A program made the translations under genes and the position numbers. 64,000 bases of DNA from Tethya wilhelma (taxonomy: Eukaryota > Porifera > Demospongiae > Tethyida > Tethyidae), in NCBI GenBank assembly GCA_964030475.1, contig CAXIPT010000004.1, positions 5,164,695 through 5,228,694 on the forward strand, in the 5' to 3' direction. Position 1 is the stretch's first letter. Every line of letters begins with the position of its first letter. The notes under the pieces were generated by a model. The model was not told the origin of the DNA, did no database searches, and saw only the letters and a list, made by a program, of their open reading frames with translations. Positions 2,367 through 60,527 of the stretch are shown one piece after another.

Positions 2367-2715
2367 ATGGTGAAGCAGAGGAGATTTGTTTGGCCTGGAG
2401 AAGAGATCTATATCATACTACTATATTACAGCTGCTTTGTTGTTGCTATTCAAACTCAGTCACTACCAATTGTTGAGGACAGATGTGCAATAAAGGAGCA
2501 ACTTGCAATTGGCTCAGGTAACACAAGCAATATGACAGTTTCAGACAATCTATCCTGTCCTGAAGTAGACAGTAATGGTACCAGTACATTGAGGTGCTTC
2601 AACAGGTCGGAGCTGTGTAATGGAGTGACGTTTTGTGAGTCAGGATCTGATGAAGGAAACTTCTCTGCCGCTCCATCTAACTTACTCATTCCAGGGAATG
2701 TATCGTTTTTGAATT
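2367..2715 (+). CDS. Exon 1: signal peptide and first LDLa-like half
   Basis: Starts with a basic n-region and a hydrophobic core (IYIILLYYSCFVVA), consistent with a signal peptide. It continues into a Cys-rich, heavily N-glycosylatable segment (NTS, NMT, NGT, NRS, NFS, NVS). The run RCFNRSELCNGVTFCESGSDEG has the C-C-acidic pattern of an LDL receptor class A repeat. The donor GTAAGT at 2716 leaves phase 1, and the codon TGT is completed across the intron. Confidence 0.85.

Positions 2716-60527: not shown

Follow-up and report, generated by a model that had tools for sequence, protein, structure and literature searches.

A predicted sponge receptor tyrosine kinase with an ectodomain probably rebuilt by exon shuffling

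The locus and its gene model

The window, i.e., the whole stretch of 64,000 nucleotides that was analyzed, corresponds to positions 5,164,695-5,228,694 of contig C4 in the genome of the sponge Tethya wilhelma (124.6 Mb, 204 contigs). A gene model was obtained by reading the open frames of the + strand, scoring splice sites, adding flanking sequence and splicing the exons, and some exon borders were set by phase and by likeness to paralogues, beyond the splice score alone. The result is a predicted gene of 26 exons and 2,023 amino acids without stop or frameshift, in which all introns are GT-AG bar one GC-AG intron after exon 3. Exons 1-25 lie inside the window at 2,367-60,527 (+), the coordinates already given in the earlier note on this DNA. 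Every module named there (an FCGBP-type IgGFc-binding domain, four Calx-beta domains, NIDO, Ig, EGF, Sushi, a transmembrane helix and a tyrosine kinase) was recovered on the + strand in the order claimed, by Pfam on the spliced model, for EGF by Pfam on the exon alone, for Ig by fold match and for the helix by hydrophobicity; two LDLa-like exons and a short Cys-rich exon at the start of the protein had been left out of that list. The model reads as follows (window numbering):

Exon 1, 2367-2715, + strand: start codon, hydrophobic N-terminus, LDLa-like (Ldl_recept_a 16.8 bits, sub-threshold; 72% DNA identity to the tandem paralogue)
Exon 2, 2847-2990, + strand: LDLa-like (21.1 bits, sub-threshold; 76% DNA identity to the tandem paralogue)
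Exon 3 (E3), 10882-11010, + strand: short, Cys-rich, without Pfam match (GC-AG donor AG/GCAAGT; 88% DNA identity to the tandem paralogue over 115 bases)
Exon 4, 19275-20723, + strand: IgGFc_binding (FCGBP-type) in one exon (Pfam; AlphaFold2 pLDDT 84.2)
Exon 5, 20886-21035, + strand: Calx-beta 1, first half (Pfam, C6 homology)
Exon 6, 26192-26425, + strand: Calx-beta 1, second half (Pfam, C6 homology)
Exon 7, 26501-26644, + strand: Calx-beta 2, first half (Pfam, C6 homology)
Exon 8, 26731-27006, + strand: Calx-beta 2, second half (uncertain 3' border; non-consensus donor at the place homologous to C6)
Exon 9, 28783-28932, + strand: Calx-beta 3, first half (weak acceptor)
Exon 10, 39708-39911, + strand: Calx-beta 3, second half (Pfam, C6 homology)
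Exon 11, 40347-40493, + strand: Calx-beta 4, first half (weak GTTAGC donor, present at the homologous C6 place too)
Exon 12, 40610-40807, + strand: Calx-beta 4, second half (Pfam, C6 homology)
Exon 13, 42411-42532, + strand: NIDO, part 1 (Pfam)
Exon 14, 44629-44919, + strand: NIDO, part 2 (Pfam)
Exon 15, 48539-48779, + strand: NIDO, part 3 (Pfam)
Exon 16, 55288-55635, + strand: Ig-like (family alignment; Pfam ig sub-threshold; fold match)
Exon 17, 55779-55907, + strand: EGF-like, FXa_inhibition type (Pfam when scanned alone)
Exon 18, 56017-56190, + strand: Sushi/CCP (40.0 bits, exon alone; 93% DNA identity to the tandem paralogue over 95 bases)
Exon 19, 58815-58947, + strand: single transmembrane helix (Kyte-Doolittle)
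Exon 20, 59079-59119, + strand: 41-nt juxtamembrane microexon (a similar exon is readable in the tandem paralogue)
Exon 21, 59213-59434, + strand: kinase glycine loop GQGEFGVVYKG and VAIK lysine (weak acceptor)
Exon 22, 59516-59739, + strand: kinase alpha-C to hinge (Pfam)
Exon 23, 59923-60035, + strand: kinase catalytic loop HRDLAARN (Pfam, structure alignment)
Exon 24, 60119-60284, + strand: kinase DFG and activation loop with DYFRQ (Pfam, structure alignment)
Exon 25, 60385-60527, + strand: kinase C-lobe (spliced model)
Exon 26, 69,489-69,639 in continued numbering, beyond the window, + strand: last kinase exon (spliced model)

A gene end at 60,527, where the range given in the earlier note stops, is ruled out by exon 26, which holds the end of the kinase and lies about 9 kb further, outside the window.

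Open frames with likeness to mobile elements were also seen in the window. The intron between NIDO and Ig holds a DDE_1 transposase frame (52252-53673, +, 52.7 bits) adjoined by an Ulp1-type C48 peptidase frame (53654-54346, -, 23.4 bits), and a reverse-transcriptase-like frame (649-1866, -; RVT_1 24.6 vs. 29.6 bits, sub-threshold) lies just upstream of the gene.

Domains, membrane segment and motifs

When the spliced model was scanned with Pfam, scores above the cut-off were obtained for the tyrosine kinase (PK_Tyr_Ser-Thr, 285.9 bits, profile positions 2-257 of 258), Calx-beta (198.3 bits over four stretches), IgGFc_binding (about 145-148 bits; 145.2 and 148.5), NIDO (96.7 bits) and Sushi (34.3 bits). 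The EGF exon exceeded the FXa_inhibition cut-off when scanned alone (37.1 vs. 33.4) but fell below it within the whole model (26.3), while for LDLa the window gene stayed narrowly below the cut-off (23.5 vs. 24.1) and the tandem paralogue exceeded it (39.8). No match at E ≤ 0.05 was found in the model to the VWD, C8, TIL, Sema, PSI, IPT, FN3, 7tm_2 or GPS profiles, and it contains one Ig-like exon and one membrane segment.

Because its Pfam score was sub-threshold (14.2 vs. 21.8), the Ig exon was folded with AlphaFold2. The best of five models reached a pLDDT of 77.6 (the remaining four 32-57) and resembled Ig domains, with Robo1 Ig5 as top match (E 5.6e-5). A profile search against solved structures gave three matches, namely one unrelated bacterial protein twice (E 0.0028) and Dscam once (E 0.43), and the Ig exons of seven of nine family members matched PF00047 at E ≤ 1 (best 6e-4).

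The 19-mers starting at residues 1626-1645 form the sole stretch with a mean Kyte-Doolittle value > 1.6 over 19 residues and were taken as the transmembrane segment; the N-terminus is hydrophobic and signal-peptide-like by eye, with no 19-mer > 1.6. In the kinase, the motifs GQGEFGVVYKG (GxGxFG), VAIK, HRDLAARN and DFG are present and were aligned to the Mer and EGFR structures. Together with the near-full Pfam match, they bear out the earlier description of the kinase as catalytically complete, although completeness is reached only with exon 26. Candidate tyrosines are Y1894 in the activation loop (DYFRQ) and Y2010 near the C-terminus (YLHI), the latter with a hydrophobic residue at +3.

Sister genes and the C4 cluster

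A module scan covering 304 kb of the T. wilhelma genome was used to compare the window gene with related loci. In the downstream 14 kb, blastn with the window gene matched exons 1, 2, 3, Sushi, TM and the kinase exons of a tandem gene in the same order; NIDO-Ig was not found there by the module scan. The standard layout of the sister genes is E1(LDLa)-E2(LDLa)-E3-Sushi(1-4)-Calx-NIDO-Ig-EGF-Sushi-EGF-EGF-TM-kinase. It is realized in one orientation within 13 kb in a sister on contig C2, and a compact sister on C3 reads E1-E2-E3-CCPx4-Calx-NIDO-Ig-EGF-CCP-EGF-EGF-kinase in one orientation within 6.7 kb. The small TM profile missed the membrane segment in both, and a hydrophobic TM-like segment precedes the kinase exons in each. 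The window gene shares E1-E2-E3 at the N-terminus and the order NIDO-Ig-EGF-Sushi-TM-kinase with this family, in which the layout varies among members. It departs from the standard layout between E3 and NIDO, where IgGFc and four Calx-beta domains replace Sushi(1-4) and the one Calx-beta, and before the TM, where EGF-EGF is missing. No Sushi exon was found by the module scan between E3 and the IgGFc-Calx block in the window.

Within the C4 cluster, no gene apart from the window gene and its tandem neighbour spans E1 to the last kinase exon. Most of the remaining copies are inverted or cut short, and pseudogenes or errors in the local assembly are therefore possible. Over C4:5,014,695-5,248,694, these include a pair of genes placed tail to tail that stop at the TM without a kinase match, a TM-kinase piece without ectodomain, a copy that contains an inverted TM-kinase piece, one without the kinase C-lobe, and one in which Sushi-Calx immediately precedes the kinase C-lobe. 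Genome-wide, a kinase exon of ≥ 60% identity occurs at at least about 34 places among the matches listed (hand count), some of which may be pieces of one gene.

Splice evidence for a single gene

For each junction, the best donor/acceptor pair was picked blind to phase, using GT donors only and omitting the 41-nt juxtamembrane exon. The best pair was phase-matched at 21 of the 24 junctions of the window gene, with eight expected under random phases, the exceptions being E3-IgGFc, Calx2-Calx3 and the junction from the TM into the first kinase exon. Similar agreement was seen in the C3 sister (19 of 22 testable junctions, 23 in all), the tandem gene (14 of 16 testable, 17 in all) and the C2 sister (17 of 22, all testable), where one miss, at a duplicated kinase exon, was without any phase-matched pair. 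In this C2 gene, a kinase exon pair (the second half of the first kinase exon, K0, plus K1) occurs twice in succession (C2:8,058,777-8,060,650) and could represent mutually exclusive exons.

The weakest junction is E3-IgGFc, which spans 8.3 kb and needs the GC-AG donor, as the best phase-matched pair with GT donors only scores -3.1; a splice from exon 2 to IgGFc that skips E3 is likewise phase-compatible. Acceptors are also weak at the Calx2-Calx3 junction and at the start of the first kinase exon. Introns of the window gene reach 10.8 kb, compared to 56-445 bases for the paired C3 introns. Phase agreement alone cannot separate one gene from two adjacent ones, because nearly all ectodomain borders are phase 1. 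The single-gene reading proposed before is supported instead by the comparison with the sisters, i.e., the compact C3 gene with the same order and the tandem neighbour with the same first three exons and kinase end; as this layout is shared by the sister genes, the family has its N-terminal exons and its kinase in a single gene.

The IgGFc-Calx block elsewhere in the genome

At ≥ 47% identity, the IgGFc exon recurs at 10 further places of the genome, out of 37 matches with itself included. On C6, IgGFc and all eight Calx half-exons follow in the same order within ~4 kb (49-78% identity), behind modules of EGF (34.8 bits) and SRCR type, the latter as two half-domains (52.7 and 48.4 bits). Every exon of the block has phase-1 borders in the window model, and 1-1 phase sites were found for each exon on C6, save that no acceptor was seen for Calx3, first half; the weak GTTAGC-type Calx4 donor is shared by both. 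C10 carries IgGFc and seven of eight Calx exons in the same order, whereas on C90 five further halves, which are out of order, lie apart from IgGFc and the first Calx half. No NIDO-Ig match was present at these C6, C10 and C90 loci, nor any kinase among the kinase matches listed.

The recurrence of the same block apart from kinases indicates en bloc exon shuffling. The simplest account, and a likely one judging from these sequences, is that a receptor kinase captured an IgGFc-Calx4 cassette en bloc, which replaced Sushi and Calx. We thus read the window gene, with a probability of about two in three, as a predicted 26-exon sponge receptor tyrosine kinase in which exon shuffling has likely remodelled the ectodomain, a block of IgGFc and four Calx-beta domains standing in place of the Sushi repeats and single Calx-beta of its sisters. 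Such an exchange would show how the sensing of cells can be rewired in an early-branching animal.

The same block could also be a gene of its own. Two overlapping genes would then be present, an IgGFc-Calx gene inserted on the same strand in a large intron of a receptor kinase that is still spliced from E3 to NIDO. This would suit the copies on C6 and C10, where no kinase stands among the matches listed, and the weak E3-IgGFc junction; a direct E3-NIDO splice would keep the frame (phase 1 to phase 1). We consider this unlikely. The IgGFc exon is no plain first exon, its first in-frame Met preceding the Pfam envelope but following the conserved domain start SxGxEF; the modelled block is without a TM segment; the Calx4-NIDO junction is tight (1.6 kb, score 6.1, phase-matched); and the receptor's own Sushi exons are missing from the interval, as replacement predicts.

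A chimera could likewise result if the assembly had been misjoined within this repetitive and rearranged group of receptor genes, considering the inverted and truncated copies on C4 and IgGFc copies elsewhere that are up to 87% identical. The block borders, however, lie in unbroken sequence of a 6.7-Mb contig, and the only long run of Ns in the window falls in an intron inside the block. On C10, moreover, copies of E1-E3 (81-87%, + strand) and of IgGFc-Calx (- strand) are neighbours too, in opposite orientation. This arrangement is compatible with an older shared linkage, and the C10 copies may represent a duplicated, rearranged half of the window gene. A misjoin therefore appears very improbable to us, and the captured cassette remains the preferred reading.

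Selection on kinase and ectodomain

Ratios of dN/dS were calculated between the window gene and each named locus, for six pairs in the kinase, four in NIDO-Ig and one each in IgGFc and Calx. The kinase gave 0.19 (tandem), 0.18 (locus D), 0.23 (locus C), 0.12 (C2), 0.06 (C3) and 0.09 (C4 at 1.95 Mb), the last two values being rough because dS is > 2. For NIDO-Ig the ratios were 0.52 (D), 0.32 (F), 0.40 (B') and 0.30 (C2), i.e., 2.5-3 times the kinase value in both pairs where both were measured (D and C2). IgGFc compared with C6 gave 0.35 and the eight pooled Calx half-exons 0.49, with single exons ranging from 0.21 to 1.15 and too short to weigh. The kinase is under purifying selection (0.06-0.23) and the ectodomain less so (0.30-0.52).

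These values also bear on whether the locus is a young pseudogene or silent copy, intact in appearance but unexpressed as a receptor. Such a fate would agree with the long introns carrying transposon frames, with an E3 that has five cysteines where the tandem copy has six and a GC donor where that copy uses GT, and with the loss, relative to C6, of the consensus donor at the end of Calx 2. The 2,023 codons free of stops and frameshifts speak against it, as do kinase ratios of 0.18-0.23 relative to the three C4-cluster copies tested, and we hold it to be improbable.

Kinship of the kinase

The kinase was placed in a tree of 25 rows, seven from the T. wilhelma genome and 18 public kinases hand-picked from 145 proteins, which serves as a sketch only. 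The family of the window gene forms its own clade (support 99/99) within a sponge clade of 13 of the 25 rows (97/98) that also holds Amphimedon SRCR and IgGFc kinases and Ephydatia IPT/PSI kinases; in this 25-row tree, the sponge clade stands beside a group holding Met and TAM. Among solved kinases, those closest in sequence were Mer, Axl and Met, ranking after a single EGFR construct that counts twice. Met receptors have a Sema-PSI-IPT ectodomain and the TAM receptors (Axl, Mer, Tyro3) two Ig and two FN3 domains; the window gene differs from Met/RON in being without Sema/PSI/IPT and from TAM in being without the Ig2-FN3x2 ectodomain.

The two Amphimedon IgGFc kinases lie in their own subclade and the readable siblings of the window gene are without IgGFc, which suggests that sponges likely linked IgGFc_binding to tyrosine kinases on more than one occasion, as far as these sequences tell.

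Known relatives

Searches of public proteins were confined to those of 0.55-1.75 times the query length. The full module combination was absent among the 120 matches listed of 653 in the whole-protein search and among the 27 matches of the IgGFc region, and the NIDO-Ig region had no match at E ≤ 1e-3 among 4,720 candidates in the public protein set. Of literature searched, mostly outside subscription journals, no paper on an IgGFc-NIDO-kinase protein was recognized. The statement in the earlier note that no receptor kinase combining these modules is known to its author thus holds for the exact combination among the matches listed and needs qualification for its parts: an IgGFc-kinase joining was already predicted in Amphimedon and a NIDO-kinase in Hydractinia. 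The comparison proteins from Amphimedon, Hydractinia, Ephydatia and the metagenome are all gene predictions.

Amphimedon LOC109589170 (P0013) reads IgGFc_binding-SRCRx5-TM-tyrosine kinase (TM by eye), with a kinase in the same sponge clade. It carries SRCR and not Calx, NIDO, Ig, EGF or Sushi, and its database model is partial. Since its kinase falls among further kinases of Amphimedon, an independent gain of its IgGFc is likely. Amphimedon LOC100634318 (P0007) reads IgGFcx2-Calx-beta x3-VWA-Ig-EGF-Ig-GPS-7TM-tyrosine kinase and thus shares IgGFc, Calx-beta, Ig, EGF and the kinase end with the window gene, but is built on a seven-pass GPCR core, has no NIDO, Sushi or LDLa match, and its kinase model is incomplete. 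Amphimedon P0006 likewise joins IgGFc, Calx-beta, GPS, 7TM and an incomplete kinase (VWA, Ig and EGF are found in P0007), i.e., the adhesion-GPCR-kinase type. Sponge GPCR-TKs are described in a published account (PMC12716839); they have a 7TM core with GPS, whereas the window gene has neither and a single TM.

Five proteins of Ephydatia muelleri (P0008-P0012) match at 51-52% identity over ~15% of the query, and the kinases of P0008 and P0011 fall in the same sponge clade, but their ectodomain is plexin-like with IPT/PSI. The Met-LP type is reported from Lophotrochozoa and Echinodermata in another study (PMC6374515). Hydractinia P0017 joins NIDO to a tyrosine kinase as the window gene does; it differs in having eleven NIDO repeats and no other extracellular Pfam match, and its kinase places with Ret on long branches. 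The metagenome protein P0123 (IgGFc-NIDO-Calxx4; TM by eye) combines the same three uncommon modules in another order and has no kinase match. P0123 has 11 member sequences. FCGBP is a secreted IgGFc-binding mucus protein with VWD-C8-TIL repeats; it shares the N-terminal IgGFc_binding domain, while the window gene has no VWD/C8/TIL match and is a membrane kinase by prediction.

Proposed working and meaning

As a working model, the ectodomain would bind an extended ligand (matrix, mucus or a microbial surface) multivalently, and clustering by the ligand would bring receptor kinases together, which could then phosphorylate Y1894 of the activation loop in trans. SH2 proteins might dock on Y2010 and possibly on juxtamembrane Y1684. 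With kinase and docking sites kept constant and ectodomains exchanged, many inputs would feed one phosphotyrosine output. In this way the receptor may couple the binding of matrix, mucus or microbes to phosphotyrosine signalling, as had been proposed from the sequence at the outset. The turnover of ectodomains leans towards variable ligands.

The ligand could instead be the sponge's own mesohyl, read by a cell-matrix adhesion receptor with no part in microbe sensing. This is a real possibility, if somewhat short of probable. NIDO, Calx-beta, EGF and Ig are known as matrix and adhesion modules. NIDO-Ig evolving at 2.5-3 times the kinase ratio (D, C2) and the module turnover among sisters are commoner in recognition of variable ligands and speak against it. 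A Halichondria transcriptome study (PMC8242945) can be cited on both sides: it reports no pattern-recognition receptor as differentially expressed after LPS, yet Sushi, NIDO, IgGFc-binding and Calx-beta appear in the legend of its pattern-recognition receptor figure, and kinases, some with sushi domains, are LPS-regulated. A nidogen-like gene and a Calx-beta gene, separate from each other, reportedly went down when Dysidea avara received symbiont consortia (PMC11229196).

A bolder reading, towards which we remain doubtful, is that of a germline-diversified receptor array, in which interchangeable ectodomain cassettes of phase 1, borne by a constant kinase end, would pass as whole blocks between receptor and non-receptor genes by recombination and so build new receptors for microbe or self recognition, the window gene having been caught after one swap. 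If true, the cassette array would be a germline counterpart of combinatorial immune receptors in an early-branching animal. A donor-like block, the recipient layout and the resulting chimera can all be read in one genome, which makes diversified receptor inputs with one signalling output a directly testable question.

Two observations on related loci may be added. For the pair of window gene and locus D, the kinase has a dS of 0.19 against 0.33 for NIDO-Ig, a difference that might reflect gene conversion at the kinase end. On the + strand at C4:1,934,438-1,951,359, IgGFc-Calx-EGF modules in order are followed by kinase exons of the family; this is tentatively a second IgGFc receptor kinase, its stretch from EGF to kinase being only partly readable.
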